This document shows, in pieces, positions 1 through 47,464 of a stretch of 47,464 nt of DNA. How positions within the stretch are numbered: position 1 is the first letter of the stretch; every line of letters begins with the position of its first letter. A program made the position numbers and the translations under genes. Below the pieces are notes generated by a model that saw only the letters and a program-made list of their open reading frames with translations, made no database searches and had not been told where the DNA came from. The stretch lies in IMG/VR virus record IMGVR_UViG_3300024261_000051, positions 1 through 47,464 of that record; one strand, 5' to 3'. This stretch comes from a virus.

Positions 1-2
1 GT

Positions 3-236
3 AATGTTTGGGAAATGCAACCTGATACAACGAATAAACACCCAGCACCTTTTCCTTTAGAGTTACCAACAAAGTGTATAACTTATTATTCCTATGAGGG
101 ATGGACTGTGCTTGACCCATTTATGGGTAGTGGAACAACAGGAGTGGCAGCAAAAAACCTAAACAGAAAGTTCATAGGGATAGAGCTTGATCAGGAATAT
201 TTCAAGATAGCACAGGAACGCATCAGTGCCGTCTAA
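3..236 (+). CDS. DNA N4/N6-methyltransferase, C-terminal part (cut by left edge)
   Basis: The open frame runs in from the left edge (codons for N-V-W-E precede the first internal ATG at 15), so this is the C-terminus of a larger gene. Residues NVWE...HPAPFP, then DPFMGSGTT, then a strand ending GIELDQEY, match the end of the N6/N4 MTase family, where the SAM-binding motif I (FxGxG) lies after the catalytic DPPY/NPPY motif (beta class). The catalytic motif is outside the window. It would transfer a methyl group from SAM to adenine N6 or cytosine N4 at a specific site; in a phage this usually protects against restriction. Its stop codon (234-236) lies inside the first box of an attC-like site, as in integron cassettes. 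Family assignment is firm; target base and site are unknown. Confidence 0.88.
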   Translation, partial: NVWEMQPDTTNKHPAPFPLELPTKCITYYSYEGWTVLDPFMGSGTTGVAAKNLNRKFIGIELDQEYFKIAQERISAV

Positions 237-292
237 CGCCTTTGTTAACTTGCTGGCGTTTATCGCCAGTCGAGTTGAACTAGTTGTTAGAC
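231..292 (+). other. attC-like recombination site 1 (integron gene-cassette type)
   Basis: The outer boxes GTCTAAC (231-237) and GTTAGAC (286-292) are perfect inverted repeats and fit the attC R''/R' consensus (RYYYAAC / GTTRRRY). Inside them, AACTTGCTGGCG pairs with CGCCAGTCGAGTT apart from small bulges, over a TTTAT loop. Such extrahelical bases are characteristic of folded attC sites. Length is 62 bp, within the known size range. The stop codon of the upstream methyltransferase lies in the first box and the next start codon is 26 bases after the expected crossover (G^TT at 286/287), a typical cassette arrangement. No integron integrase or attI is in the window. Confidence 0.72.
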
Positions 293-312
293 ATTACCAG
301 AGAGGATAGGAA

Positions 313-597
313 ATGGAAGGTTTTATTTTAAAAGCTCCAATTGAAATAGAGATGCAAATTAGCGTTATTAACATTGATGACCCTTCACAACTTGGGACAG
401 TAACTTACGGGCTTAGGAATGGTGAGTTTCCAACCAAAGAGGACATGCAAGCAGCGTTAAAAAAGTTTGAAAATGAAGAAATGCCAGAGGGTTTTCGCCT
501 AATGACTAAAAGAGAGTTCTTTGACAAGCTTATTCGTGAAAAGACTGGAAGCCGTGAACGTTTTGCATTACCCGGTGGTGATGATTGGAATGTCTAA
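313..597 (+). CDS. hypothetical protein in attC-flanked cassette
   Basis: A 94-residue acidic soluble protein with no signal peptide, membrane segment or motif that I recognise. It starts with ATG after a purine-rich ribosome binding site (GAGAGGATAGG, 301-311). The gene is flanked on both sides by attC-like sites and its stop codon (595-597) lies in the first box of the downstream site, so it looks like the whole cargo of one gene cassette (about 287-654). Its C-terminus, GGDDWNV, is encoded up to the box itself. Function is unknown; as single-gene cargo beside two methyltransferases it might be a defence or anti-defence protein, but that is only inference from context. Confidence 0.75.
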   Translation: MEGFILKAPIEIEMQISVINIDDPSQLGTVTYGLRNGEFPTKEDMQAALKKFENEEMPEGFRLMTKREFFDKLIREKTGSRERFALPGGDDWNV

Positions 598-660
598 CGC
601 CAAGCTAACCGGACACAAACGGCTCCTTGTTTGTGGTCCGTGTTGAGCGACTTGTTATAT
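592..660 (+). other. attC-like recombination site 2
   Basis: First box GTCTAAC (592-598) overlaps the upstream stop codon; last box GTTATAT (654-660). The inner arms GCTAACCGGACACAAAC and GTTTGTGGTCCGTGTTGAGC pair along their length with a few unpaired bases on one side, the hallmark of attC. The outer boxes are not complementary to each other, which is expected in an integrated array because the last six bases of the right box belong to the next cassette. The first box of this site does pair with the box at 286-292, which would be joined to it in the circular form of cassette 287-654. That consistency supports the call. Confidence 0.7.
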
Positions 661-678
661 TACGTTTTGGAGATTGTT

Positions 679-1167
679 ATGACGGCTGGGAGAAAAGTAA
701 ACACTGGTTCTACGGATTGGAACACGCCCCCAAAGTATGTAGACGCTGTGAGAGATGCCCTTGGGAGGATAGAATTTGACCCATGCTCAAATAGCTCATC
801 GATAGTTGGTGCTGATGTTGAACTGCACAGCGGTGGGCTTGATGAGGACTGGGATAAATATAACACCATATTTGTAAACCCACCTTACGGATTTGGGATA
901 GCAGATTGGTTAAAGAAGTGCGCGAATGCGAAGGGGGATGTTATTGCGTTAATACCAGTCGCACCGAACACTAAGCACTGGAAGAAATCGGTATTTACTG
1001 CTAATGCAATATGCTTTTTAGCCGATACAAGACTTCGTTTTATGATAAATGGGAATGTGAATAATAAAGGTGCAAGCATGGCCTGTTGCACAGTATTTTG
1101 GGGTAAAGACAGTGCCAGATTTGTGGATGTATTTAGCAAGTTTGGCACATGTGTAAAAGTAATATAA
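679..1167 (+). CDS. phage DNA N-6-adenine methyltransferase (Dam-like)
   Basis: A 162-residue protein with TDWNTP near the start, FDPCSN, and the catalytic motif NPPYGF about residues 69-74. The order is that of the compact phage N-6-adenine-methyltransferase family, and the length is close to the family norm. Later strands (VIALIPVA, ICFLADTRLRF, TVFWGK) match its C-terminal half. The start at 679 is chosen over the upstream frame start at 631 because GGAG lies 7-10 bases before it and because the upstream part would run through the attC-like site. It would methylate adenine in DNA and probably protects phage DNA from restriction. The stop codon lies in an ATATAAC box (1162-1168) that mirrors the TTATAT beginning of its own presumed cassette. 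Confidence 0.85.
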   Translation: MTAGRKVNTGSTDWNTPPKYVDAVRDALGRIEFDPCSNSSSIVGADVELHSGGLDEDWDKYNTIFVNPPYGFGIADWLKKCANAKGDVIALIPVAPNTKHWKKSVFTANAICFLADTRLRFMINGNVNNKGASMACCTVFWGKDSARFVDVFSKFGTCVKVI

Positions 1168-1288
1168 CAGTGGACTATACGGAAATATAAATATGACCAA
1201 ATACGCAGCAATATCACTAGACAGGCTAGAGGAGATACAACAACATGCGGATGATACTAGAGAAGAATGAGTTGACGCATAGTTAGGC
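1162..1288 (+). other. degenerate or broken third cassette junction
   Basis: ATATAAC at 1162-1168 overlaps the Dam-like stop codon and is the exact complement of the GTTATAT box that begins this gene's cassette (654-660). Downstream, GAGTTGACGCATAGTTAGGC (1269-1288) resembles the right halves of the two intact sites (GTTGA, a short spacer, then GTTA). The interior does not fold into the arms expected of attC and contains a 25-codon reading frame, so I read this as a junction damaged by insertion or deletion, or as two half sites from different cassettes. Confidence 0.4.
1193..1270 (+). CDS. 25-residue ORF, possibly a gene remnant
   Basis: ATG at 1193 with GGAAA eight bases upstream; the product begins MTKYAAISLDRLEEIQQHAD and ends TREE. 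This looks like the N-terminus of a small soluble phage early protein that has been cut short. It lies inside the broken cassette junction. It may be a remnant carried in when that junction was disrupted. Whether it is translated cannot be told from the sequence. Confidence 0.3.
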   Translation: MTKYAAISLDRLEEIQQHADDTREE

Positions 1289-1313
1289 TGAAGCTAATAG
1301 AGAGATAATTATT

Positions 1314-1664
1314 ATGAAACACAACCAAACAATTAAACAAGCGATTGATGCTCTATTAGTTGCTATGAGTCACATCGACCCTTGTGATACAGACGCATTC
1401 ACACAAGGAAATGATGCTATTCAAGCCCTACGTGAATATCAGGATGGTTGGATTAGCGTAGAAGATAAACCTGTCCCTATCGATGAAAAGGCAATGCTCT
1501 GCTTCCCCTTAGCTAATAATGAGTATTACATCTGCTCAGGTTATATTGCGCTTGAGGACGGATCTGTATGGGCTGATAGTGATGTTGGTGAGATAGGTTA
1601 CCTATCGTGTGATATATCACATTGGCAATCACTGCCTGAGCCACCAATGAATACAGGAGAATGA
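1314..1664 (+). CDS. DUF551-type phage protein
   Basis: A 116-residue protein. The C-terminal half has the pattern of DUF551, a small domain common in phage and prophage early regions: DGWISVEDKPVP near residues 44-55, a central strand ending ICSGYI, and DISHWQSLPEPP near the end. The N-terminal half is a helical segment (IKQAIDALLVAM). The start follows AGAGAGA about 9 bases upstream. It begins a run of closely spaced genes read rightwards. The molecular function of the family is not known to me; family assignment is good, function none. Confidence 0.75.
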   Translation: MKHNQTIKQAIDALLVAMSHIDPCDTDAFTQGNDAIQALREYQDGWISVEDKPVPIDEKAMLCFPLANNEYYICSGYIALEDGSVWADSDVGEIGYLSCDISHWQSLPEPPMNTGE

Positions 1665-1667
1665 TAA

Positions 1668-2072
1668 ATGAAACACATAGACAGACTAACAGTGCAGCAA
1701 ATCAATCGCCTTGCAGCTAAGGCACAGTGGAAGTTAAAGAAGCGTGAATTCGGAGATCATTACGACACTGTAGATGCGGTTGATTATTGGATTGAAAAGA
1801 AAAAGATATGGCTTAGTGAATACGACCCCTGTCACAACGGTCAGCAAGCGATGGATCTTCAGAAGAGATTTCATGTAGATGTAACTTACACGTATTCTAT
1901 AGATGAAGTTCATGATGAATTAGATGAGTCCGAATGGGTTGAGGCAGTAGTGTATCTGCAGTCTTGTGATTCTCCGAGTATTCGCAGCTCTACACCAGAG
2001 CGAGCAATAACACTGGCAGTAATTGCATCGAAGTGGGGAACTGAGATTGATGAGGAATTACTAAATGGATGA
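1668..2072 (+). CDS. hypothetical phage protein, ABA-sandwich-like
   Basis: A 134-residue acidic protein starting three bases after the previous stop, with GGAGAATGATAA as its ribosome binding region. The central YDPCHNGQQAMDLQKRF, a beta-rich middle, and a C-terminal helix after TPERAITLAVIASKWG recall the phage ABA-sandwich domain proteins found in many early regions, in which a short recognition helix is followed by a sheet and an AICxAAL-like helix. The resemblance is weak and by eye. No catalytic residues are evident. It is probably cotranscribed with its neighbours. Confidence 0.65.
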   Translation: MKHIDRLTVQQINRLAAKAQWKLKKREFGDHYDTVDAVDYWIEKKKIWLSEYDPCHNGQQAMDLQKRFHVDVTYTYSIDEVHDELDESEWVEAVVYLQSCDSPSIRSSTPERAITLAVIASKWGTEIDEELLNG

Positions 2073-2127: not shown

Positions 2128-2344
2128 CATGGAAAAAGTATCTAAAGATATGAACGAGTTTATGGAGAATGCTTTGGATGCAGAGATAGCCCGTAGTATG
2201 TATGGTTCAGTAGGTCGTGAAGATTTTAAAGTAGAGGACTATCCTATTAAGTTTAGAAAATATTTAGATGCTTATGTAAATACTGATAAGGATGTGTGTG
2301 AATGTTTCACTATGTACTTGGATGATAATGGACTTCTAACATGA
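2120..2344 (+). CDS. hypothetical protein, 74 aa
   Basis: A small acidic soluble protein, largely helical in its first half (EKVSKDMNEFMENALDAEIA), with a C-terminal CECFTMYLDDNG. No family recognised. It sits in the coupled early operon; a weak purine-rich stretch (AGAGTTAAAG) precedes the start. A second ATG at 2129 (MEKVSKDM) is also possible. Real gene status rests on its position and on the tight packing with neighbours. Confidence 0.6.
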   Translation: MSNMEKVSKDMNEFMENALDAEIARSMYGSVGREDFKVEDYPIKFRKYLDAYVNTDKDVCECFTMYLDDNGLLT

Positions 2345-2394
2345 ACAATAAAATCGTAAGTGTCGTAGCTGATTTTGGAGAGAACAATGATTAA
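2341..2394 (+). CDS. tiny ORF (17 aa) overlapping previous stop
   Basis: ATG at 2341 overlaps the preceding TGA (ATGA coupling). The product is MNNKIVSVVADFGENND. It has no recognisable feature and may be a truncated gene or a coupling peptide. Confidence 0.25.
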   Translation: MNNKIVSVVADFGENND

Positions 2395-2419
2395 AGACCA
2401 TTAAAGAGGGAGCAGATAT

Positions 2420-4774: not shown

Positions 4775-5836
4775 ATGGCTAAAGTAGAGCAAACATCCAC
4801 TGGTAAGTGGCAGGCAATCGTCCAGAAAACCGACCCATACACAAAGGAGTTGATACGTAAAACTCAGTCATTCCTAACCAAGGCAGCCGCCGAGAAATGG
4901 GCTACAGATATAGAGTACCACATAGAAAGAGGTGACCTTAAAAAGACCATCCATGCAGCCAAGACCGTCACCGATGCACTTGACCGGTATGAGAGAAAAG
5001 TAACCCTCAATAAAGCCTGTGCAAAATGGGAGAGTAAAAAGATCAAGTATCTCAAAACCCTCCCCATCGCAAAGATCAAACTCAGCGAACTGACAAGGGA
5101 AGATGTTTCAGATTGGAAAGACTTCAGACTGAAATCCATCCAGGGTGAGAGCCTGCTTAGAGAGTGGACCGTACTCAACTCCGTACTCAACTACGTCATT
5201 GAAGACCTCGGGTGGTTCGAAAAAAACCCCATGAGATCTGTACGCAAACCCCCCAAGGGTGACCCCAGAGATATCGTCTTCCTCGACAACGATCTCGCAG
5301 TCGCTCGGCACGTCAGTGGATACCATGAAGACGAACCACCAGAAAAGGTGATGCCAAGAGTCTGTGCCGCCCTGCTGTTCGGAGTAGAGACCGCTATCCG
5401 CTCCACAGAAATGACAAAGATCACCTGGGATATGGTACTCCCAGATCGAATCCGCCTACCCAAAGAGATCACCAAGGAGAAAAAGAAGAGAACAGTCCCC
5501 CTCTCCCCCAGAGCGCAACACCTAGTTCAACAGTTCTACTCCGTCAAAAAGGATAACACCATGTTGCGCCTGACCCCCGATCAGATCTCCTCCAACTTCA
5601 GGAATATCCGCATCAAAGGCAATCTCAATGGACTGACATTCAGAGACTCCAGAGCCACCGCCCTCACCAGACTCTCAAAACTCTACGAGAACCCAATGGA
5701 GCTGGCGAAGATCAGCGGCCACCGCAAACTATCCACTCTATTAAATACCTACTACCGCCCCGATGAGGACGACCTGGTCTCCAAACTATCCCAGTTCCAA
5801 CCCTCAGAAGTTGGCAAATCGACCTTCTTCCCGTAA
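4775..5836 (+). CDS. int: tyrosine recombinase / phage integrase
   Basis: A 353-residue protein. An N-terminal arm-binding part (TGKWQAIVQKTDPYTKELIR) is followed by a core-binding helical domain (about 70-160) and a catalytic domain. Catalytic residues visible are Arg209 (ETAIRSTE), a beta-hairpin Lys near KKKRTVPLS, Arg293 in RDSRAT (the usual HxxR histidine is replaced by Arg290), His316 in SGHRKL and the nucleophile Tyr326 or Tyr327 (NTYYRPD). The HxxR substitution is a modest deviation; neighbouring residues are conserved. It would catalyse integration and excision at attP/attB. The start has CGGAG 7-11 bases upstream. Its end overlaps the giant late gene, which converges from the other strand, by 33 bases. 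Confidence 0.93.
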   Translation: MAKVEQTSTGKWQAIVQKTDPYTKELIRKTQSFLTKAAAEKWATDIEYHIERGDLKKTIHAAKTVTDALDRYERKVTLNKACAKWESKKIKYLKTLPIAKIKLSELTREDVSDWKDFRLKSIQGESLLREWTVLNSVLNYVIEDLGWFEKNPMRSVRKPPKGDPRDIVFLDNDLAVARHVSGYHEDEPPEKVMPRVCAALLFGVETAIRSTEMTKITWDMVLPDRIRLPKEITKEKKKRTVPLSPRAQHLVQQFYSVKKDNTMLRLTPDQISSNFRNIRIKGNLNGLTFRDSRATALTRLSKLYENPMELAKISGHRKLSTLLNTYYRPDEDDLVSKLSQFQPSEVGKSTFFP

Positions 5837-8800
5837 GTAGTCATAGCTCTTAGGGAGATAGGTGCCAGCATGTGTCTGCTGCGCACTTCTCTTCCGGCTT
5901 CTCATAGAGCGCTTAATCGTGTCACCGGTAATCCGTATCCTCTTCTGAGGATGGCGAAGATTGAATGACTCAATACTCTGCATGATATTGCCACGCTCCT
6001 CCACCGACTCCGCACGGATCCAGCGATCAACCAGCCGTGTCTTCGCCTCCTGGATTGCATCCTTCTGCAGGGTAAGGAAGTTACGATAAGCGTAAGCCTC
6101 GCCATGCCTGCGGGGACTGAAACCTACCGCCTGCATGAACAGCTCCATAAAGGTAATATCCTCCTCCAGCACTCGCTCACCCTTCCAGGTTGTAATATCC
6201 TCCTGCGTAAACCGGATCGACTTGGAGATATCCTTGAACGCCTTCGGTATCATCATCTCAATACCTCTCCAGGTTTTGCCCTCCGCAACTTTCGCAGCTC
6301 CCGTGATCACATTCTCAAGGTTGGCAGCCAGTGGCCCCATCAACCCAGCGATCCGGTTACGGGCCATATCCCGCCCCTCAGCATGCTCATCCACCCGAGG
6401 CATCCACATACCCAGAAGATCGATACTCATCCGGGAGGAGATATCAATGGAGGGGAAGATCGCACGCGCTGGACCGTGCGCAATAACCTCTGCCCAATCC
6501 TTACCGGTCGCGTCCGTCAACTTGTTACGGTACCAAGCCTCCGCATCAAACTCCTCATCCTCCTCACCCATGCCATTGGCAAGCATCTCAACAACTCCAG
6601 TCACCATGCCAGAGATAGGCATTCCCAGGGTACCCACAAACATACCGTAGCCACCCATAATCCCCATCAGTGACTTCCGGGCCTGGCTACGGGTCTCTGC
6701 ATCCACGTTACTGGTGAATGAGTTACGCAACAGCCGCCCCATCATCCAAGACATATTGAGTGAATACTGCTTGAACATGGTGATCACACGCAACCAGTTC
6801 CCCTGCATGGCACGCGCCCTGTTTGAAGAGGAGTAGTCGAAGTGACTGTCATAGATCATGGTCCGTGCCGCATCAATCGCCTCATCATGAGAGAGTGGAT
6901 TCTTCTTATCACTCCGAGCCAAACGATAGGCAGCCAGCCCCGTTACCTGACGGTTGAATACCTCCGCATAGTGGAACGGTGCCCCCGCAAACTTCATGGC
7001 ATCATGTGCCTTCCGTGAGAGTGAACCACCTTTGGCCATTGCCAGATGGTCCTCATGTCCTGCACCCTGAAGCTCAATCACATTGGTGGTACTGATCGCA
7101 CCCATATCCTCCAACATTTGGATCGCCTTCAGCTCGTCACCCTTTAGACCATGCTTGATGTCACGGAACAGCTCAGGGTCATACTTACCATTTGGCCCCC
7201 AATCTTTCATGGCTCGCATCACCTCCTTGCCGGCCCGGCCAAAACCGTACTTGGCCCCCATCAATGGGTAGGCAATCAGAGGGGTCTGCGAAATATTAAC
7301 CAGTGCGGAGGCAATCGAGGGTCCGATGCTCCAGGTAAATCCTGCAGCTCCAGCCACCCCAGAGATCGGACTAAAGGATGCGTTTTGCATATTCTCATGG
7401 CGCTTATCGATCTCACCGATCAGATCATAGGCGTAGCGCTTATCCCCCGCGGGGAGACTCTTCGCCTGCTTCTTCGCCTCAGCAATATCACGGGTCAGCT
7501 TATAGTCATACTGAACATTGGCGATATTGTTATTGATCCGACCCGCTGTCAGAGCAAAAGCCCGGATCGCATCATCCGAATACCCCTTGACCCCTTTACG
7601 GTGCATGAAGTTTTTATGATAGGAGGAGTCCGGCATAGAGGAGAGCATGACCGTATTCATCTGGTCCAGCAGATCCTGCTTCAAGTGCTGCTCATCAGCG
7701 CTCGTATCAGGCAAGCTGTCGCGCAACAGATCAATCATCTTGCTCCCCACCCCAGAATAGGTGGCGTGCTTAAAGAAGTTCTGCTCCCCCTTCTTGATCT
7801 CAATATCTCCAGCAGAGTAACCCTGCTTAATGAAATCCTCTACCGCCACACGAACCTCTTCATCCGACTCAAAGGCGGCAACAATGCGCTCCTGATCCCC
7901 CTTCTCTTTAACGATCACGATATGATCCCCAAAGCGTGCCAATGGGAAGTATGGCCCCTTCCTTTTAATTACCTTGAACTGATTATTCAGCTCGCCCAGC
8001 AACCCCTTTAACGTCTTCTCATCTTCAACCGTATCGGTCAATCGAGCCGTCAGGGAATCCTGCAGGTCCACCATCTTGTTGGTGAAATTTTGGCGCAACT
8101 CTTTATAGAGGTCATGCCATCCAGGGAGCGCATCATACTCAGCACGAATCCGCTGATACTCAATACGTCTCTCAGAGTTAGGCTTGAGTGAGTCGTCCAG
8201 AAGCTCAAAGGCTTTGGCGGGGTCAATCTGGTAAAGCGTAGAGGTATGGATGATGTCCGCAAACCTAGTGGATGCCTCACCCTCTTTCTTGGCCTTAGCC
8301 ACCCAGCGCTTATAGAGCCGGTCATCCTTATCCGAGCGCTTCACCCGTACCGCCTCTTTATCCTGTGACCGCTTATGGTAGTCCCAGATAGAATCCAGGT
8401 GAGTCTCCTTAGCAAGCTCAGCCACCATGCGCCGAGTGAGCATCCCCAAGGAGGTGGCTCTCGCATTGATACCCTTCCCTCTAAGGAACTTACCCACCTT
8501 CCACTTTGAAGCTGGACGCCCCATGACCTGTTCCATCATCTGGTTAACAGCGCCCTGAGTCATTGGCTTACCATCCGGCATCGCTATCGAGAAACTGATA
8601 TCGTCACTCTCCTCACGCTCTGCCTTCTTGAACAGATCGGCCCTTGTAATATTCTCCACGCCCGGAGTCGTTGACTCTGGTTTGCGGCTGAATTTTGCCT
8701 CTATCTCTACGTCTGCATCATTGAAAATTACATAGTTGTAATCGCCGTCGCCTTTGCCGCGCGAGCTACCATCAAGGTATTTGATGCCTCGGATGCCTGC

Positions 8801-11800
8801 GGCGAGCAGGGCGAGGGAGGCGGCGCGGTCGGAGCGGTTGGACACGGCGATGTCGCGGTAGAGGCCCTCTCCGGTCATCTCACGCGGCTTCCCCGCGAAG
8901 GGGGAGCGTCCGGTTTCGTCCTGGTACGCCTGGCCCACCATCGACTTTTGGCCGTCGCTCAGAACGGAAGCGTCGAAGCCACCCTCAAACAGCGATGGGA
9001 ACTCTTTGGTGGCCCACGCCTGCGCCTCTGGCGTCCATGCCCCATGACCTTCAAGCCCCTCCAGCGCCTTCCTAACCTTCTCGCCCTGCTCACTCAGCGG
9101 CTTATCCCACAACAGGTACTCATCCTCTGATGGTTTGAGATCCACCTGGTAGAGTTTTCCTTTTGATTTGGATAGCTCCATCTCATCTAGGATTTGACCG
9201 ACAGTACGTTTTACCCCTCCCTGCACCCACAGACTGTAATAATCTCTAGCCTCTTCGAGATTGCCTCCGTGCTCCTGGATTGCTTGAACAGCAGTTGCGG
9301 CGGCAGCTTCAGAGTAGCCGGAATCGACAATGGTTGGGATCAGCTCACGATAATCCCCAGTCGTGAACTCTTTACCTCCAAACTTAAACACTCCTGGATC
9401 ATACTCGCTCAGTTGGTTGCGATAAAACTCCCCAACCTCCTTATTCCCAGCGAAGTACATCCCCCAGCCATACGCCTGAGCACCCACGCCTGTTCCGATC
9501 TTACCAGTAGTGAAGCCTTCAAGATCGTGTGGCGACCCGTGCCAAGCCGTCATAAACGCCGGACGATCACCAAGAGCTACGGAACCGCCCTCAATAGCCG
9601 CCTGGCGGACTCGTTTCAACAGGTACTGCAAGTCACTGTCCGTAAGCTCTGCGCTCTTCTTGTACCCCTTAATCCTTAGCCAGTCGCGGAACTGTCCCCA
9701 TAGCGCCTTAACTGCATTCTTAAATCTGACTGGCAGCGTCTCATACGCCTTTTTCCCAGACAATTGAGCAATCAACTCGTCCACTATGAATGCACGATAG
9801 TCCTCTACGGTAGTTTCTCCACGATCAAGCCGACCTTTACCTGTCTCAATGTACGAATCAAGATCGATATCGTACCTTTTAGCTACGTCCCGAACGCCTT
9901 TAGACCCCAGCATCAAGAACAGCTTGTTGTAAGATTGCTTGATATTATTGTCGAACAGTAGCCGACCAAACTTATGGCCAGCCGCCTCATGCAGTAGCGT
10001 CTCCTCAATATGGAGGTCTCCACTCATCTTGTCTGCAACCAGGTAGACCTTTCCTTCATGGAATACGCCCTCAACAGAGCCGGTCGCCCCATCTTCTTCA
10101 GCCTGTCTACGGATATCAGAAGGCAGATCTGCTTCAGTTGCTACAACCTCATACTCAGTCTTCTTACCCAGTCTGCGGTAAATAATATCTTCTGTTTTCG
10201 ACTCTACCGCATCAACGCTCATGCCTCCAGACTTGCCAGAATCAGATCGCAAAGAGTACATCGCTATACCTTTGCGCGGAGAGGTTGCAGCCTTGTGGGC
10301 CTGCATATCCAGATTGATCATCTCCTCATTGATCTTCATCTTGTTACCCGGGAAAGTTCCAGAACCATTGACGGCCCGGCGTGCCCCACGCAGCAAGTAG
10401 GCTACGTCTGTGACTGACATACTACGAGCCAGGCTCTTGAAGCCATGGTTACGCAGCCAGTTACGAATTGCACCCAGAATCTCCAGCGCCTTCTGCTTAA
10501 TCTTCCCAGTCTCATACCCAGCAACGTGCGCCAAGAACTCATCTGCAATCAGCCCCTGCCTACGCTCACGAGTCTCTCCACTGTACAGCTTCATGTACTC
10601 AGACATCTCACGAGTGATCCCGTACTTTCCGGCCAACTCATTGATCCCCTTGTACCCACCCAGCATAACGAACAGCTTATTCAGCCCCTGATTGATATCA
10701 GTCGTGTTGAGCAGCATACGGATACCGTGGTGCCCATAAGTCTCATGGAAGATCACCTGCTCTGCTTCGCGCCGTGAAGTGATCTGCTGACGATTCAGGT
10801 ATACTTTCCCGTTATGGATAACCCCTTTAATATCGGCTATGTCTTGGCCGCGCTTCTGATAGTGATTCTTTATGTAGCCTGGAAGCTCTTCGGCACTAGA
10901 GAGCGGGATGAGTTCTACGTTTCCACCCGACCATTTGACTGGGAGGTTACTGATGACAGCATCGAGAACAGCGGCAGAGATCGGAGTCTTTGACTGACTC
11001 TTGGATACCGAGAACGCCACATCACCCGTATCACCCTTAAAGGCATCATTGACTCTATGGGTTACTAGGTAATCTCGCTGAGCACCCTTTAATTCTTCCA
11101 GTCTGAGTTGATGCGGATCAATTGCCGCAACTACGGCACTAGGCTGCCTCTTAACAAGAGTGGTCTTATGTGCAGCGATCTCTTCCTCGGTTGGAAGTTC
11201 AGCCTCATTCTCAAAAGACCCCTTCGATATAGCGGTTGTGATCTTACGCTTGTCGGCTGAGGATAACTCAATCGCCTCGCCATTGCCCCGCACGCTCAGA
11301 CGCACGCCATTCATCATCCCAGACAATGCCTCTATGTTCTCCTCAGTAACGCCCCTGATCAGGAACTTGCCACCTGAAGAGTAGAGAGTCGCACCAAGAT
11401 CATCCAGCTTATCATCCATACGGCTATCAAAGTAGATTCTGCCTCCCGATTCCATCTCGCGTGATTCTGTCACGGTAAAGATGAGATCACCCGAGCGCAC
11501 CTTATGCTTGCCAGTAATTATCACGTCATCTGTAGAGAGAATCTCACGAACCCGCCCCACTTTATTCTCGTGCAACTCGGGGATGACCTTCTGATTGCCG
11601 TAGCGATAGATGACTGCGCCCAGCTTTTTCAGAGCCGCGTCACGATCATCTCCAAACGTAACTCTCATAGACTCCTTCTTACCTTGGTCACCCAGAACAC
11701 CAACCTGACTCTTCTCGTCAGCCAGCTTGCGCCCAACATGGTCCCAGAAGTATTCAGTACCTCGGTCCCCAATCCTCTTCAGTCCGGCCTCAACTTCACT

Positions 11801-14800
11801 CCAGCTATGACCGTCCATATATTGATCGAGCTTGCCAGACTGGAAGTCACGATTAAACTCAGTAAAGGTTCTATGCTTGTGCTCAAGAACCCCCTGCTTA
11901 ATCGCCGCCCGTAAAGCGTTAACTCCATCAGCAACCTCACTAAAGCGGAGCACCTCATCAAGCCCCATTCCGAAGGCTGGGTTAGGGATTAGCTCGCTCT
12001 CACCATTCGCGTGATCAGCAATGTCATACAGATTAATCAGCTTCTCTGTATTGATATAGTCTCCACTCAGAAACTCCGTATAAAGAGCTGAGTAGACTCC
12101 GTTATCGGTTTTGATGTCACTGAAGATACTGCTGTTCTTAACCCCTGATCCTGCGTTCTCACCATAGAAGAAACGGTTATCCAGGAAGATCTCTCCATCA
12201 ATGGAACGGGTAGGTACCGTGGTCCAGATAATGTTCTTGGGGCCGCTGCGGCGTAGGAAGAACAGCATATCACCATCCTTCTTCTGCATGACGAACGACA
12301 TAGCCTTGTCTGTATCGTCAGCGGATTCAGACATCTTCTCTCCACGCTCTTCGCGCCCAAGAGTAAAGCGGTCAAGCGCTTCCTGTCTGTTGCTTCTGGC
12401 GTGCCGAGTAACTCCACCACCCTGACGGCGATACCTTTTAATAATCTCGATCAAACTTCTGGGGGCGGCCATCAGCTTCTGAGGATCTTGGATCAACTCC
12501 AGCACCGCTGCCTTCAGCTTGTTGATGCTCTTATACTGTTCGCTCCATATAAGCGCATCTATCTCATCTGTAATCTGTAGGTCTGCAACAACCTGAGTCT
12601 TAATAATGTTATTGATCCGAGCCTTTGATGCCTTGTCCGGCGTAAAGGTTTTAGTCTTCCTGCTATTAAGAGTCACATCCACAAGATGATCATTCGACAG
12701 ATACTGGGCCAGATCCTCAGATGCCTCTACTCTGGACTCAAAGGAGTCAAGGGTAATTCCATCCAGGGTGACGTTCCACAAACCGTCCTGCCCTTTATTG
12801 ATACCCACAACAGAGTCACCGAACAGTGCCCGACGATCACCTGCTTTACCCAGCGCCTCATAAACAGCCCGGACCTCTTCGGAGAGTGAATCAATACTGA
12901 ATCCTTGGGAAGCCTCTTCAACTACCCCTTCAGTAGACTCCACCGCTACCTCAGCGCCCCCCTGCTCAGCCTGATACAGAGACTCATCCCAAACATCAGC
13001 ATCATTCAGCGCACCAAAGAATGCATTGCGTGCGGCCTCATGCAGCTGAGCAGGGATCGGAACCTCTTGAGCTGCCAGCAGCGCCTGGAACCGGTCCTCC
13101 AGTTCAGCATCATTGAGTGCCATAAATGCCGGGTGTGTTGCTGCCTGCTCCCCCATCATGGAGTAGCTGATAATCACGTCCTCCATCAGGGCTTCAAGCT
13201 GCTCCTCCTCGCTGGACTCCGAGATCTCAACTGACTCCTGAGCTGGTTGCTCTATTTCGACTGGCTCTGCTTCTGAGATCTCATCTGCTGGAGCTGCTTG
13301 ACTCTCAGCTTGGCTTCCTCTGGAGTGTTGTACCTGCCCAGCGTTCGTCCCTTCTTGGACACTACTGCCCACTGGTTGTCCTGCGTTTTGACTATCATTT
13401 ATATCTCCTATGGTTTCTGCAACAGCAACAGACGTAGCACCTCTTGTCAGTACGCTACGGGCTGCGGTATCGATATCACTATGCTGATCAATCTCTGAAT
13501 AGCCGCCCTCTTCATTCATTCCAAAGACAGAGAACCCGTTCCCGTTGTCTTCAATATAAAACTCAGGTGCGAACATATCAGTGTTTACCCACTCCACCTG
13601 AAGATCACCGTACAGCATATCTCCGGCAGGACGTAGCGCATGACTGAACGCCACGCTGTCACCCATAATGTCGTCATCCAAATCATCCAGGAAATCAACT
13701 TCATTCTGCTGGAACGCTATATTCTCTGGGTACTGCTTCACCAAGTTCTCGAACAGATTAGCCTCAACATGATCAGCTTCCTGCTGTGCGGCTGCAACAC
13801 CAAAGGCGTCAGCCATAGATGTGTTGGTAGCCTCGCCGAAGATGCGGCCATCAAAAGTATCTTCCTGCTCTACTTCTACAGCAACCGGTGTATTCGCTAC
13901 AGCTGCCGCTTCAATATTCTGACTATGCTGAGCCTCAACAGCATCAGGTAGCGTGCCACCCTGCGCCCTTACAGTCTGGAACAGATCGAGCAAACTTTCG
14001 GCCTGAGTGGCTTTAACTGAAGCCTGATCAATCTCCTCCTGAGTCTGCGCGTTATTCATCACATCTACCTGTGCAGATATGAAGGATTGAAGCATTGCGA
14101 TTCTCTGAGATAACGGATCAACCGCCACCTCCTCAGTAGGCTGTACCTGCTCTGATGGTGTAACACCATTCCGCATATAGGTGGGCGTATCCAAGTTAGG
14201 CTGTTGCTTACTTTCTACAGGAACAGAATCTGGAGCCTGAGCTGGAGTCAATATCCCGTTCTGCTGACGCGGAGCCTGAATAGCAACCGCTGCCTGCTCA
14301 ATAGCAACCGCTGCCTGCTCAATAGCAACCGCTGCCTGCTCGTATGTATCATGGACTGTAACCAGCTTGCCTGAAGGGTTCTGAACAAAGAACTTACCCT
14401 TATGCTCAATGATATTGAAGTCAGACTTCTCAACTCCCTCCACGGCATCCTCAATGCTGAGGCGCTGCGCCAACCCGTCTCGCTCCTGACCCAGAAGCGT
14501 TACCTCATTATCCAGTGCCGCAGCCTGTGTCGCAGTCTTCTCTCTCTGATCACGAGCGACATGCGACTCTTTGAGCGCCTTCTCTTCAAGTGCAGAGAAA
14601 GACTTCTTAGTGCCAGATAATGCCGACAGCTCAGCAAGCTCCGACTGCAAAGCAATCATGTCGTTGATGGGCTGGTTAATCTGGTCCTTCTCCAGCGGTG
14701 ACATTGCCGAAGCGAGAACATCCTTTGCGCCCTCTTGCGCCTTAGCAATTCGTGTCTTCAGCAGACTCTGGGCAGAGCCGATATTGTCAGTACCAATATC

Positions 14801-16237
14801 ATGATCTTCCAGCGCACTCGATACAGAGGTGATCCGCTCGCGCAGAGCAGTAGCACTCGCCTCCCTCTTGCTCTGAATCTGAAGAAGCTCATCATTCTCA
14901 GATCTTCTCTTATCGATATCAGCACTACGGACATCCAGATCATCTAATGCCTTCTTTATCCCCGGACGGATATGTGAGCGATCACCCGTATCAATATCCG
15001 CTTCAGGGTCTGCCCCAAATACAGAATTTACCGCACTGCCTGGAACCGACAAAGCACCACCCGCAACACTACCACTCACTACGCCAGTCATTGCCGCAGC
15101 ATTGGTGCCCTGCTCTTCAGGAAGGCCCAAAGCAATATTGGTAGCACGCTTACCCTCGTGCCCCTGAATACCCTCTTCCGTGGCCTCAAGACCTGTAGCT
15201 GCTGTCGTATTGCCAAGGAACGACTTCCCAAGTTTACCGGTGACCGCTTTGCCCAATAGAGGCATAGCCACGCCACTGGTGACAAAGGCAGTAGCAAACA
15301 TCTCATCGAACGCCTGCCCCTCAAGACGCTTAATCACATTGCTGCGTGCAATCTTTATCCGGGTCGGGGTGTCGAGAGAATCATCCGTATTGTTGTGGTA
15401 CTCATTAGAGAATAGTCTGGCAACCTTTGGATTGGAATCGGCAGACTTATTGTTCCACTGGCTATCAGTGTACCCGCGCAGTATATCTCCAACTTCCTGC
15501 GCCTGAGAACCAGCCTCCATCATACCAACAACGGTACCAAAACCAGCTGCACTACCCCCCGCATCCGCAGCCGTATCGAATGCACCCTTCTTGCCGAGCT
15601 TGTACTTACCGAGCTTGTACTTATTCAGTACCGCATCCGCCGCATCTTTGATCGGCATTCCACCTTTAGCAAGATCCTTTGCCTCACTGCTAAAGCGCTT
15701 AACAAGGAAACTACCACCCTTCTTTATCACCTTCTTTACTGCATACCCAGCCGGACCGCCACCCACTAACCCAGGGACAGTTGATCCTATGGAGTGGATT
15801 GCTGTTGCGTAAAAATTAGACAGGCTTGCGTCCCGGTTAACCTCCCAATCATCTTCGCCAACCTGATTGATAAGAGGTACCGACAACGCATCGGCTGTCG
15901 TTTTATTCATGTCACTCCAGACACTCTCTTTTGCAGCACCAGCGAACTTGTTAATTGTTTCGCCGACCCCAAAATCAGGGAGAAAGTCAAACTGATCAAG
16001 CCCCTTGCCCAGCCCCTCAATAGCACCAAGGGCACCATGCATAATGAGCTTAGACTCTTGGATATCATTAGGATCTTCAGCAGACGCATCCATGCCCCGC
16101 CCCATGCCAAACGACATCTCGTCACTCTTTACAATGTCTGGCGCGGACTCTCTTGCTGCGCGTAGTTGCACCAACTCATCTTTACGCGCCTGCCGTCTGG
16201 CAAGATAATCTGAACGCTGCTGATCTATATATGACAT
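5804..16237 (-). CDS. giant polyvalent virion protein (two zincin-like domains, ART-like domain, LPD-type C-terminus)
   Basis: A 3477-residue uninterrupted frame, last gene of the late operon, placed like the internal/ejection proteins of short-tailed phages. Visible regions: Gly/Ala-rich hydrophobic N-terminus (to about 420); coiled coil (about 430-630) with three copies of AVAIEQA; long acidic Gln/Glu-rich linker (about 650-1130). Two related zincin-like metallopeptidase domains follow, with HETYGHH at 1831-1837 and HEAAGH at 2083-2088, each preceded by GKVYL and followed by a similar helical part. An ADP-ribosyltransferase-like domain spans about 2231-2516 (AWHGSPHDLEGF, GAQAYGWGMYFA, DYNYVIFNDADVEIE). 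The C-terminal helical region (about 3080-3390: MFKQYSLNMSWMMGR) resembles the LPD38-type domain of large polyvalent proteins. Such proteins are thought to enter the cell with phage DNA and act on host targets. N4 virion RNA polymerase has similar length, but its motifs are absent. Confidence 0.85.
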   Translation of the reverse strand: MSYIDQQRSDYLARRQARKDELVQLRAARESAPDIVKSDEMSFGMGRGMDASAEDPNDIQESKLIMHGALGAIEGLGKGLDQFDFLPDFGVGETINKFAGAAKESVWSDMNKTTADALSVPLINQVGEDDWEVNRDASLSNFYATAIHSIGSTVPGLVGGGPAGYAVKKVIKKGGSFLVKRFSSEAKDLAKGGMPIKDAADAVLNKYKLGKYKLGKKGAFDTAADAGGSAAGFGTVVGMMEAGSQAQEVGDILRGYTDSQWNNKSADSNPKVARLFSNEYHNNTDDSLDTPTRIKIARSNVIKRLEGQAFDEMFATAFVTSGVAMPLLGKAVTGKLGKSFLGNTTAATGLEATEEGIQGHEGKRATNIALGLPEEQGTNAAAMTGVVSGSVAGGALSVPGSAVNSVFGADPEADIDTGDRSHIRPGIKKALDDLDVRSADIDKRRSENDELLQIQSKREASATALRERITSVSSALEDHDIGTDNIGSAQSLLKTRIAKAQEGAKDVLASAMSPLEKDQINQPINDMIALQSELAELSALSGTKKSFSALEEKALKESHVARDQREKTATQAAALDNEVTLLGQERDGLAQRLSIEDAVEGVEKSDFNIIEHKGKFFVQNPSGKLVTVHDTYEQAAVAIEQAAVAIEQAAVAIQAPRQQNGILTPAQAPDSVPVESKQQPNLDTPTYMRNGVTPSEQVQPTEEVAVDPLSQRIAMLQSFISAQVDVMNNAQTQEEIDQASVKATQAESLLDLFQTVRAQGGTLPDAVEAQHSQNIEAAAVANTPVAVEVEQEDTFDGRIFGEATNTSMADAFGVAAAQQEADHVEANLFENLVKQYPENIAFQQNEVDFLDDLDDDIMGDSVAFSHALRPAGDMLYGDLQVEWVNTDMFAPEFYIEDNGNGFSVFGMNEEGGYSEIDQHSDIDTAARSVLTRGATSVAVAETIGDINDSQNAGQPVGSSVQEGTNAGQVQHSRGSQAESQAAPADEISEAEPVEIEQPAQESVEISESSEEEQLEALMEDVIISYSMMGEQAATHPAFMALNDAELEDRFQALLAAQEVPIPAQLHEAARNAFFGALNDADVWDESLYQAEQGGAEVAVESTEGVVEEASQGFSIDSLSEEVRAVYEALGKAGDRRALFGDSVVGINKGQDGLWNVTLDGITLDSFESRVEASEDLAQYLSNDHLVDVTLNSRKTKTFTPDKASKARINNIIKTQVVADLQITDEIDALIWSEQYKSINKLKAAVLELIQDPQKLMAAPRSLIEIIKRYRRQGGGVTRHARSNRQEALDRFTLGREERGEKMSESADDTDKAMSFVMQKKDGDMLFFLRRSGPKNIIWTTVPTRSIDGEIFLDNRFFYGENAGSGVKNSSIFSDIKTDNGVYSALYTEFLSGDYINTEKLINLYDIADHANGESELIPNPAFGMGLDEVLRFSEVADGVNALRAAIKQGVLEHKHRTFTEFNRDFQSGKLDQYMDGHSWSEVEAGLKRIGDRGTEYFWDHVGRKLADEKSQVGVLGDQGKKESMRVTFGDDRDAALKKLGAVIYRYGNQKVIPELHENKVGRVREILSTDDVIITGKHKVRSGDLIFTVTESREMESGGRIYFDSRMDDKLDDLGATLYSSGGKFLIRGVTEENIEALSGMMNGVRLSVRGNGEAIELSSADKRKITTAISKGSFENEAELPTEEEIAAHKTTLVKRQPSAVVAAIDPHQLRLEELKGAQRDYLVTHRVNDAFKGDTGDVAFSVSKSQSKTPISAAVLDAVISNLPVKWSGGNVELIPLSSAEELPGYIKNHYQKRGQDIADIKGVIHNGKVYLNRQQITSRREAEQVIFHETYGHHGIRMLLNTTDINQGLNKLFVMLGGYKGINELAGKYGITREMSEYMKLYSGETRERRQGLIADEFLAHVAGYETGKIKQKALEILGAIRNWLRNHGFKSLARSMSVTDVAYLLRGARRAVNGSGTFPGNKMKINEEMINLDMQAHKAATSPRKGIAMYSLRSDSGKSGGMSVDAVESKTEDIIYRRLGKKTEYEVVATEADLPSDIRRQAEEDGATGSVEGVFHEGKVYLVADKMSGDLHIEETLLHEAAGHKFGRLLFDNNIKQSYNKLFLMLGSKGVRDVAKRYDIDLDSYIETGKGRLDRGETTVEDYRAFIVDELIAQLSGKKAYETLPVRFKNAVKALWGQFRDWLRIKGYKKSAELTDSDLQYLLKRVRQAAIEGGSVALGDRPAFMTAWHGSPHDLEGFTTGKIGTGVGAQAYGWGMYFAGNKEVGEFYRNQLSEYDPGVFKFGGKEFTTGDYRELIPTIVDSGYSEAAAATAVQAIQEHGGNLEEARDYYSLWVQGGVKRTVGQILDEMELSKSKGKLYQVDLKPSEDEYLLWDKPLSEQGEKVRKALEGLEGHGAWTPEAQAWATKEFPSLFEGGFDASVLSDGQKSMVGQAYQDETGRSPFAGKPREMTGEGLYRDIAVSNRSDRAASLALLAAGIRGIKYLDGSSRGKGDGDYNYVIFNDADVEIEAKFSRKPESTTPGVENITRADLFKKAEREESDDISFSIAMPDGKPMTQGAVNQMMEQVMGRPASKWKVGKFLRGKGINARATSLGMLTRRMVAELAKETHLDSIWDYHKRSQDKEAVRVKRSDKDDRLYKRWVAKAKKEGEASTRFADIIHTSTLYQIDPAKAFELLDDSLKPNSERRIEYQRIRAEYDALPGWHDLYKELRQNFTNKMVDLQDSLTARLTDTVEDEKTLKGLLGELNNQFKVIKRKGPYFPLARFGDHIVIVKEKGDQERIVAAFESDEEVRVAVEDFIKQGYSAGDIEIKKGEQNFFKHATYSGVGSKMIDLLRDSLPDTSADEQHLKQDLLDQMNTVMLSSMPDSSYHKNFMHRKGVKGYSDDAIRAFALTAGRINNNIANVQYDYKLTRDIAEAKKQAKSLPAGDKRYAYDLIGEIDKRHENMQNASFSPISGVAGAAGFTWSIGPSIASALVNISQTPLIAYPLMGAKYGFGRAGKEVMRAMKDWGPNGKYDPELFRDIKHGLKGDELKAIQMLEDMGAISTTNVIELQGAGHEDHLAMAKGGSLSRKAHDAMKFAGAPFHYAEVFNRQVTGLAAYRLARSDKKNPLSHDEAIDAARTMIYDSHFDYSSSNRARAMQGNWLRVITMFKQYSLNMSWMMGRLLRNSFTSNVDAETRSQARKSLMGIMGGYGMFVGTLGMPISGMVTGVVEMLANGMGEEDEEFDAEAWYRNKLTDATGKDWAEVIAHGPARAIFPSIDISSRMSIDLLGMWMPRVDEHAEGRDMARNRIAGLMGPLAANLENVITGAAKVAEGKTWRGIEMMIPKAFKDISKSIRFTQEDITTWKGERVLEEDITFMELFMQAVGFSPRRHGEAYAYRNFLTLQKDAIQEAKTRLVDRWIRAESVEERGNIMQSIESFNLRHPQKRIRITGDTIKRSMRSRKRSAQQTHAGTYLPKSYDYLREEGRFANF
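14280..14342 (-). repeat. three tandem 21-bp repeats within the giant gene
   Basis: Three 21-base units (ATAGCAACCGCTGCCTGCTC plus one base on the + strand), nearly identical, encode EQAAVAI repeated in the coiled-coil/linker part at about residues 632-653. Near identity at DNA level points to recent slippage. Confidence 0.85.
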
Positions 16238-30144: not shown

Positions 30145-30206
30145 TAGAACCCCTCATGCCCTTCAATGGTCCCGTGGTCCTGCTCAATAATTCTTTTGTC
30201 GTTCAT
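30144..30206 (-). CDS. tiny ORF (20 aa)
   Basis: ATG at 30206 overlaps the lipoprotein stop (ATGA). The product is MNDKRIIEQDHGTIEGHEGF. No hydrophobic segment or motif. Supported only by coupling with its neighbours. Confidence 0.25.
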   Translation of the reverse strand: MNDKRIIEQDHGTIEGHEGF

Positions 30207-30406
30207 CTCACTCTCCATACATCGTAAGTAGCGTCACTCCATCCCTCACCGATCTCCACAACAGCCGTCATCTCTTTCGGTGCGAGGGTACATCCGCTCA
30301 TTAGTACCACGATGAAAGTAATCCACAGAATTATTAGCAGTGACCCTAACAATCGGGCCAAGAGGGTGGTGATCACATCGTGTAGCTTGTCGTCCTTCAT
30401 AGTCAT
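30203..30406 (-). CDS. small outer-membrane-type lipoprotein (possible o-spanin)
   Basis: A 67-residue protein with an N-terminal polar part, the hydrophobic stretch LLGSLLIILWITFIVVL and the lipobox LMSGC (Cys about residue 39), leaving a mature part of about 29 residues (CTLAPKEMTAVVEIGEGWSD...). Small phage lipoproteins with this form often act as Rz1-type outer-membrane spanins, or block superinfection. It overlaps a zinc-binding ORF in another frame over 161 bases; both look credible, as in nested Rz/Rz1 pairs, but the overlapping partner is not a membrane protein. Start could be either of two ATG codons, 30406 or 30400. Confidence 0.55.
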   Translation of the reverse strand: MTMKDDKLHDVITTLLARLLGSLLIILWITFIVVLMSGCTLAPKEMTAVVEIGEGWSDATYDVWRVR

Positions 30407-30449
30407 ACAGAATCATTAATCCGCAAATATGGCATTTGAAATCACTCAT
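30246..30449 (-). CDS. small cysteine/histidine-rich protein (67 aa)
   Basis: ATG at 30449 (MSDFKCHICGLMILYDYEG) follows GAAAAATG... and overlaps the end of the 30-residue membrane peptide gene. CHIC near residue 6 and CDHH near residue 26 could bind zinc. The C-terminus is DDGCCGDR. Most of the gene overlaps the small lipoprotein in a different frame, so one of the two may be a shadow; the Cys/His spacing and the coupled start are the arguments for this one. Confidence 0.45.
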   Translation of the reverse strand: MSDFKCHICGLMILYDYEGRQATRCDHHPLGPIVRVTANNSVDYFHRGTNERMYPRTERDDGCCGDR

Positions 30450-30534
30450 CACATTTTTCTGCGCCATACCATGTGCAATATATAATCACTACAAGGGCAA
30501 TCGCGGCAGGTATTATGATTAAATAGCCCATCAT
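30442..30534 (-). CDS. single-pass membrane peptide (30 aa)
   Basis: Product MMGYLIIIPAAIALVVIIYC followed by TWYGAEKCDE: one transmembrane helix and a short polar tail. Start overlaps the stop of the preceding 25-residue peptide; end overlaps the next start. Two adjacent ATG codons (30534, 30531) can start it. Tiny membrane peptides in a late region can be holins or antiholins, but at 30 residues this is only a suggestion. Confidence 0.45.
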   Translation of the reverse strand: MMGYLIIIPAAIALVVIIYCTWYGAEKCDE

Positions 30535-30608
30535 CGTAAGTAGAAAAGACCAATTGAGATAGCCATAAATGCCATTGTGAAGAACCCTATTAAGTAAATT
30601 GGTGTCAT
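30531..30608 (-). CDS. single-pass membrane peptide (25 aa)
   Basis: Product MTPIYLIGFFTMAFMAISIG followed by LFYLR: almost entirely a membrane helix. It lies just after the coiled-coil membrane protein (gap 25 bases) and is coupled to the next membrane peptide. Possible holin-like or accessory membrane peptide; nothing more can be read. Confidence 0.42.
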   Translation of the reverse strand: MTPIYLIGFFTMAFMAISIGLFYLR

Positions 30609-30633
30609 TTTTTCGATCCTCGTTCCATCAGTA

Positions 30634-31116
30634 TTACCTCCAGCTGTCCATTGACTCTACCAGCGCCTCAAGCTCATTTGCCATCGACTCAATAATAATT
30701 TTCTCGTTCTTATGCTCTAGTTCAATCACTATCGACCTAGATTCCAGTTGGTCTATGCGCTTAAAGTAATCGGTCAACTCTTTGCGTTTAGCTTTCTCTA
30801 TAGCCTCTTCTTTATCTATATCCCTCACTACCAATGTAGTGGTTATTGTTGCCGCAAGTATCAAGAAAGCGCCGATACCGTTTAATATCCATCTGGCTGT
30901 ACGCCTTGATGATCTAGCACTCTCCAGCTCTTGAGTGTTTGCCGCTATTTCATCCTTCAAGCTGTCGTATTTACTAAACAGCGTTATTACTGTCTCCCGT
31001 TCAACAACGTCCTTCGTTATCTCCAGAAGATGCTCGAAGGTTGATTCCACCTTGCCGAAGAACTTGTCAACTGCTGGATGGTTGGTACTGTTTTCCGGTG
31101 CTTCTGGTGCCTTCAC
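30634..31116 (-). CDS. membrane protein with two coiled coils
   Basis: A 160-residue protein. Helix and coiled coil (about 20-75, ending ANTQELESARSSRR), one transmembrane helix (WILNGIGAFLILAATITTTLVV, about 76-97), then a long charged coiled coil (DIDKEEAIEKAKRKELTDYFKRIDQLE...). The second coiled coil may lie in the periplasm. A membrane-anchored periplasmic coiled coil followed by a small lipoprotein gene is the layout of i-spanin/o-spanin pairs, although an i-spanin normally has its membrane helix at the N-terminus. Placement in the lysis/envelope cluster supports a role in lysis. Start ATG 31116. Confidence 0.6.
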   Translation of the reverse strand: MKAPEAPENSTNHPAVDKFFGKVESTFEHLLEITKDVVERETVITLFSKYDSLKDEIAANTQELESARSSRRTARWILNGIGAFLILAATITTTLVVRDIDKEEAIEKAKRKELTDYFKRIDQLESRSIVIELEHKNEKIIIESMANELEALVESMDSWR

Positions 31117-47069: not shown

Positions 47070-47228
47070 ACTTATTTGAAATAAGCACATCCGCGTCATC
47101 CCCCAAAAATCATTATCAAGGCAAGGTAATATTGAATAAGTCGGGGATAAAACCCTTGCAATTCAACAACCCACAAGGCAAGCGCAAAACAAAACCCGTG
47201 CAACCCCTTGATAATTGGAGAGATAACC

Positions 47229-47464
47229 ATGAAAAAGACAGTAACCAAAAAAACAGCAACTGCAGGAACCAAAAAAACAGCAACTGCAGTGACTAAAAAA
47301 ACAGCAACTGCAGGAACCAATCAAAAAGCAACTGCAGGAAGCAAAACGGTATTTAAGCCGTTAGCCATGGCAGCCTTGAATAAGGTTATACAGGGGTCCG
47401 ACAGTGTAACGGTAAGTACACTGGTCCGCGCTATTGAACACGCTACCGCGGTAGCTGGTGGCAT
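47229..47464 (+). CDS. Lys/Thr/Ala-rich repeat protein (cut by right edge)
   Basis: ATG 47229 follows GGAGAG at 6-11 bases. The product begins MKKTVTKKTATAGTKKTATA, then a VTKKTATAGT unit and a related one, then a globular part (KTVFKPLAMAALNKVIQG, SDSVTVSTLVRAIEHATAVA) that runs off the window, so the gene is incomplete. The Lys-rich repeated tail resembles the basic tails of histone H1-like and other DNA-binding proteins. With a promoter-like region upstream this could be a phage DNA-binding protein. I do not recognise the globular part. Confidence 0.6.
   Translation, partial: MKKTVTKKTATAGTKKTATAVTKKTATAGTNQKATAGSKTVFKPLAMAALNKVIQGSDSVTVSTLVRAIEHATAVAGG
47244..47339 (+). repeat. four tandem 24-bp repeats
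   Basis: Three nearly identical 24-base units (ACCAAAAAAACAGCAACTGC plus AGGA) and a fourth diverged unit, each encoding TKKTATAG or TNQKATAG. They lie inside the truncated gene and are prone to slippage. Confidence 0.88.

Follow-up and report, generated by a model that had tools for sequence, protein, structure and literature searches.

Positions 1-1167 of an IMG/VR virus record are likely a CALIN, an attC cluster without an intI gene, lying in a phage genome with its cassettes inverted; a host integron integrase (IntI) would have inserted them at the point TAA^C, and selection would have favored the inverted direction. The window, which is the whole stretch of DNA analysed here, is 47,464 bases long and is classed as linear. 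At its left end, genes for a DNA methylase, a 94-aa protein and a Dam-type methyltransferase all lie on the plus strand, with two hairpin sites between them. The features are as follows:

1..236, minus strand: part of a further cassette, or an array-edge phage gene, cut by the record end; the methylase stop codon lies inside the attC1 R' box
3..236, plus strand: 3' end of a DNA methylase gene (N6_N4_Mtase; Pfam PF01555, E 3.7e-26)
231..292, minus strand: attC1, with R'' GTCTAAC (292-286), L'' and L' arms and R' GTTAGAC (237-231); crossover 237/236
237..597, minus strand: cassette B, 361 bp, attC1 plus the 94-aa gene (antisense to attC), with complementary end boxes
313..597, plus strand: gene for a 94-aa protein with relatives in five phage records, 33-43% identical
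592..660, minus strand: attC2, with R'' ATATAAC (660-654) and R' GTTAGAC (598-592); crossover 598/597
598..1167, minus strand: cassette A, 570 bp, attC2 plus the Dam methylase gene (antisense to attC), with complementary end boxes
679..1167, plus strand: gene for a Dam-type DNA N6-adenine methyltransferase (Pfam PF05869, E 5e-14; longest reading frame from 631)
1162..1168, minus strand: outer cassette boundary box GTTATAT (on the plus strand ATATAAC, which contains the Dam stop codon); crossover 1168/1167

To judge from their families, the methylases would probably protect phage DNA against restriction. The 94-aa protein matched no Pfam and no PHROG family.

attC sites and cassettes in the window

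On the plus strand the boxes read GTCTAAC (231-237), GTTAGAC (286-292), GTCTAAC (592-598) and GTTATAT (654-660). The sites were examined with a covariance model of 47 positions, whose training set comprised 68 of 72 spliced attC arm pairs and excluded the window sequence. The arms were spliced because full-length alignment misaligned in the right arm. Training candidates came from arrays adjoining genes for integron integrases and from three integron-bearing phage records; they formed a loose set with many false sites, then filtered by written rules, and since these rules retained sites in which R'' is followed by AACAA or AACC and R' is preceded by CGTT, the model is itself trained for direction.

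In the standard covariance search attC2 (592-660, minus) scored 33.5 bits (E 1.6e-5) and attC1 (231-292, minus) 23.2 bits (E 0.0042), with E-values that are rough by the tool's own statement, and these were the sole window matches at E ≤ 10. The same model gave 29.9-39.8 bits for the four sites of phage H101, which lie outside the training set, 23.8 and 20.0 bits for two sites of phage TJE1, and 26.1 bits for a copy of attC1 in the viral contig G001. By these scores both window sites are attC sites. This confirms an earlier observation, made from the sequence alone, which had placed two such sites at these boxes; on re-reading, the boxes fell at the same positions. The sequence-only reading had also named background scores in a covariance search as grounds for giving up the claim. 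None were seen in the standard search; with the filters off, the same model gave low scores of 15.4 and 13.5 bits (E 0.31 and 0.83) on partial alignments. Limits on loop insertion may be their source, although the low scores are not fully accounted for. Both sites folded better than their dinucleotide shuffles: attC1 had z values of -4.45 (minus) and -5.25 (plus), and attC2 of -2.54 (minus) and -2.43 (plus). An Rfam search returned no match, and comparisons of attC1 with phage DNA and of attC2 with plasmid DNA gave short matches only.

Both model matches lie on the minus strand, and both sites carry the forward AACAA/GCGTT signature on that strand. Among 124 candidate sites, some of them false, that a symmetric rule picked out in arrays whose direction is known, the full signature was found in 65 and its full reverse in 1, and in a check of the model's direction at 32 bacterial intI loci 84 of 86 matches fell on the expected strand. 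With model and signature both assigning the attC sites to the minus strand, the plus-strand genes therefore run against them, and the earlier plus-strand reading of the sites has to be given up.

The box at 286-292 is exactly complementary to that at 592-598 (7/7), so that the cassette with complementary end boxes proposed earlier does exist in a virus record. The R'' box of attC2 (654-660) is likewise exactly complementary to 1162-1168, around the Dam stop codon (7/7). On the opposite strand, every one of these stop codons reads as the TTA of an R' box. The two complementary box pairs therefore bound two complete cassettes, at 237-597 and at 598-1167, where a single-gene cassette was first described; the truncated stretch to their left may belong to a third one. 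The 94-aa and Dam genes lie antisense inside their cassettes, and the truncated methylase probably does likewise. The usual integron layout, in which gene and attC share a direction and attC follows the gene, is thus absent here, the genes being on the plus strand and attC on the minus. Beyond 1162-1168 there was no further model match in the window at E ≤ 10; an attI at the Dam boundary was considered as a candidate and is neither supported nor excluded.

The array is a CALIN in that it has two attC sites 300 bases apart and no IntI match in the record; the lack of such a match anywhere in the window record also means that it is not a complete integron. An integrase gene at 4775-5836 (plus) matches general phage integrase families. 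Its end is overlapped by a minus-strand ORF of 3477 aa (5804-16237).

Two other explanations of the sites were weighed. Hairpins of another kind, such as terminators or phage repeats, might merely resemble attC; every hairpin does lie directly after a stop codon, and the filters-off scores are low. Against this stand the standard-search scores at both sites, the complementarity of neighboring boxes in 39 of 63 viral pairs, and the exchange of cassettes at the G^TT point in other viral contigs, and we regard such a resemblance as most improbable. Hardly more credible is an array of ordinary forward cassettes, with attC on the plus strand and each gene followed by its own attC. The sites are near-palindromic, so that stop codons fall inside a box in either reading, and both strands fold about equally well. 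The plus strand, however, gave no model match at E ≤ 10, the AACAA/GCGTT signature is reversed when that strand is read, and in the minus reading the L'' arm has, by eye, the extra unpaired C of class 1 attC sites.

Gene direction at viral and bacterial attC sites

Viral sites were collected by pattern scans of contigs that were blind to gene direction, followed by the model and the removal of near-duplicates, which left 120 sites at 54 loci. Three scans gave 82 stretches, and 23 of the 61 from two of them had no model match at E ≤ 0.1. The 136 sites pooled from three model searches (47 of 52, 2 of 5 and 87 of 87 matches) included 16 near-duplicates, which were removed. Left out of the 52-match set were its weakest four and L207 3570-3627 (script filter); left out of the 5-match set were L139 and two that are the G001 sites, counted as L203. 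An ORF of at least 60 aa was scored as opposite-strand when it ended in the R' box and as same-strand when it ended in the R'' box.

By this rule 50 of the 120 viral sites were opposite-strand, 10 same-strand, 3 both and 57 none. Boxes in viral loci meet such an ORF end by chance in 83 of 905 cases (9%, attC boxes included), and the viral same-strand count is near that level. Bacterial sites linked to intI gave 1 opposite and 27 same among the best 79 of 86 model matches, and 20 other chromosomal sites 1 and 8, making 2 opposite versus 35 same in the pooled 99. Viral and pooled bacterial sites differ with a Fisher p of 5e-15, in which sites of one array are not independent. Taken by locus, 27 viral loci were mostly inverted, 6 mostly forward and 2 even (sign test, p 3e-4); of the 36 with a call, 6 were forward only and 5 mixed. 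The 20 loci with a terminase, portal or tail marker had 27 opposite versus 8 same over 52 sites, and among 24 inverted-only contigs 11 carried a phage marker. The marker and IntI searches covered 35 contigs for the 36 loci, L148 and L207 sharing one contig, and later marker searches covered the 22 without a terminase match. IntI gave no match at E ≤ 0.001 in the window and 35 other records, except for a weak partial one in G018.

A looser measure, which asks for a gene of at least 80 aa ending near attC, is weaker: the 120 viral sites gave 37 inverted, 22 forward and 61 without a call, and the 20 chromosomal sites 0, 15 and 5. The ORFs were called mechanically; a PHROG family was found in 7 of 20 inverted or edge ORFs tested, and a Pfam family in 2 of 10 same-strand (forward) ORFs, namely L208 and, below the cut-off, L246. 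It is therefore probable that viral contigs do contain a small number of genuine forward cassettes. In the isolated phage H101 (PH101) four attC sites lie on the plus strand, with three annotated genes between them on the minus; at none of its four sites does a stop codon lie inside a box. Phage TJE1 has the forward layout. A model search at E ≤ 5 of 88 viral methylase or Dam loci matched only the G001 copy, L148 and, weakly, L139, and phage methylases therefore rarely adjoin attC. Taken together, the survey suggests that the backward build is common in phages.

Cassette movement, the carrier and the proposed insertion

Among 63 neighboring viral pairs, R' and the next R'' matched 7/7 in 39; four of the seven box letters are nearly fixed, which brings the chance of such a match to about 1 in 64. 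Some contigs differ at the crossover points. L195 and L211 share 6,091 identical bases, a stretch that ends at the R' box; the edge attC of L195 agrees in its core with the third attC of L211, and between this third attC and the flank common to both, L211 carries one further cassette with exactly complementary boxes. L227 and L231 have a common 651-base unit (94.5%), both ends of which lie within a few bases of TAA^C. A stretch of 237 bases with attC, ending in R', is 97.9% identical in L230 (8417-8653) and L260 (1820-2056), with surroundings that otherwise differ. Since some viral contigs differ exactly at crossover points, cassettes move there. As to direction, L195, L230 and L260 are inverted, L227 is forward only, L231 is mixed and L211 is without a call.

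For the window array, the proposed check for gain or loss in close relatives found one relative with the same array, G001; the two carry the same cassettes, with neither gain nor loss between them. G001 carries DNA polymerase, primase and portal genes. It corresponds to window positions 1-1855 at 98.4%, to 30203-30793 at 92% and to pieces of 1656-2067, and its ORFs of at least 80 aa showed no other similarity to the window at E ≤ 1e-4. The two contigs begin at the same base, and their backbones differ. Either the array block has moved between phages or one of the contigs is a chimera. A mis-assembly, in which a block from another phage (G001, for example) was attached to this backbone, seems to us unlikely. 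The 98.4% identity beside a different backbone and the common starting base favor it, while in the window plus-strand ORFs run on up to the integrase gene, and phages exchange modules often. Mis-assembly, if true, would change the carrier and leave the cassettes as they are.

Some further observations concern the same contigs. The gene at window 1668-2072 has two diverged tandem copies in G001 (L013 1667-2503), the proteins being 61% and 73% identical. In contig G003 (L017 1-3628), window 2232-2400 and the sequence from window 30203 on are linked by some 3.4 kb that include a tandem array; the join may reflect a deletion variant, an exchange of modules or a mis-assembly. An ORF start at window 47208-47464, with a lysine/threonine/alanine repeat, is complete in G003 (237 aa). 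Close relatives of the 94-aa gene were absent from bacterial genomes and numbered one among viral contigs, that in G001. In the five phages with 94-aa relatives (L298-L302) no attC match at E ≤ 1 lay beside them; in three of these five records they stand near annotated recombinase or exonuclease genes. The DUF551 neighbor had no match in the phage collection.

An opposite-strand ORF ended in the R' box at 22 of 55 array-terminal sites and, in a similar proportion, at 28 of 65 inner sites. Three of the genes at these array ends fall into phage-type families: L212 has a Mor-family activator, L256 a single-strand binding protein and L251 an RNA-binding protein. At the other array edge, the stop box was exactly complementary to R'' (7/7) in 9 of 33 candidate ORFs, as in the window, the sequence beyond being viewed by eye. 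This edge pattern is what insertion at TAA^C would give, a target proposed from where the surviving arrays lie. A motif beginning at the stop codon, TAACAG(C/T)(A/G)G...CGGAA, is common to three gene ends, at L148 393-413, L148 2002-2022 and window 1165-1184; when the opposite strand is read, it looks like the right half of an attC.

In the mechanism we propose, the acting enzyme is assumed to be a host integron integrase, which would recombine a circular cassette into G^TTA on the complementary strand of a phage gene. Read along the gene itself, this target is TAA^C and closes the stop codon, so that the insertion would do no harm. An inverted cassette placed there would leave the preceding gene intact, would be read from the phage promoter, and would bring a stop codon that restores the target. 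In the direction of phage transcription, each unit of the array consists of C, attC hairpin, ribosome site, gene and TAA, with the next unit directly after. A forward cassette at TAA^C would be antisense. Because co-transcription would be obtained only when the gene is inverted with respect to its attC, selection would keep inverted cassettes in phages; in integrons, forward ones would be retained downstream of the promoter Pc. According to the text of PMC10127599, cleavage by integron integrases occurs at GNT or G^TT, and these enzymes also use motifs of this kind outside integrons; attG sites appear in the title of a reference cited in PMC11023631.

A different form of selection would act on cassette mobility, with inversion placing the recombining attC strand on the lagging-strand template, instead of on insertion at stop codons and co-transcription. 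In its favor, the text of PMC11023631 describes an inverted chromosomal integron in which the recombining strands lie on the lagging-strand template and more excision is expected. We hold this lagging-strand idea to be doubtful.

If insertion at TAA^C with selection for co-transcription is correct, it would provide a rule by which phage operons, among them those with anti-restriction methylases, could be assembled through integron recombination. As to where cassettes originate and how genes come to be joined to attC, the opposite gene orientation suggests that phage cassettes were not simply lifted from bacterial arrays. It is possible, though we would put it at somewhat less than an even chance, that phages hold their own pool of backward cassettes, that host integrases extend operons after stop codons, and that phage genes become cassettes there instead of coming from bacterial arrays. 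Annotation is also affected: once taken into a bacterial integron, an inverted cassette would have its gene pointing away from Pc.

Relation to known systems

CALINs in phages, as attC clusters without intI, have been published (Qi et al., 2023; PMC9892861). According to the text of that paper, 5 of 6 tested phage attC sites recombined with attI1, and several phage CALINs contain DNA methyltransferase genes. The window resembles them in both its attC cluster without intI and its methylase genes. The sequence-only reading was thus right that integron cassettes are present in a phage genome, which in view of this publication is not new. The passages of Qi et al. (2023) consulted here do not state that genes run against attC; of their phages, PH101 is inverted and TJE1 forward under the present model. 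Literature searches among open-access papers yielded a single paper devoted to phage cassettes, that of Qi et al. (2023), and, in the main text consulted, no statement of the inversion, whose novelty is thus unproven. As far as this literature goes, phage-borne cassettes are already known and the inversion is the undescribed part.

Chromosomal integron cassettes have the same attC sequence and structure as the window and the same complementary R''/R' boxes. They differ in that the gene runs with attC and attC comes after the gene (42 forward, 4 reverse and 4 without a call, n = 50), and in having an intI, for which no match was found in the window record. Insertion at secondary sites, as described in passages of PMC10127599, or at attG sites, as named in a reference title in PMC11023631, has in common with the window recombination outside attI at short GTT/GNT motifs. 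The window differs in that whole arrays lie at the stop codons of phage genes, with their cassettes inverted.
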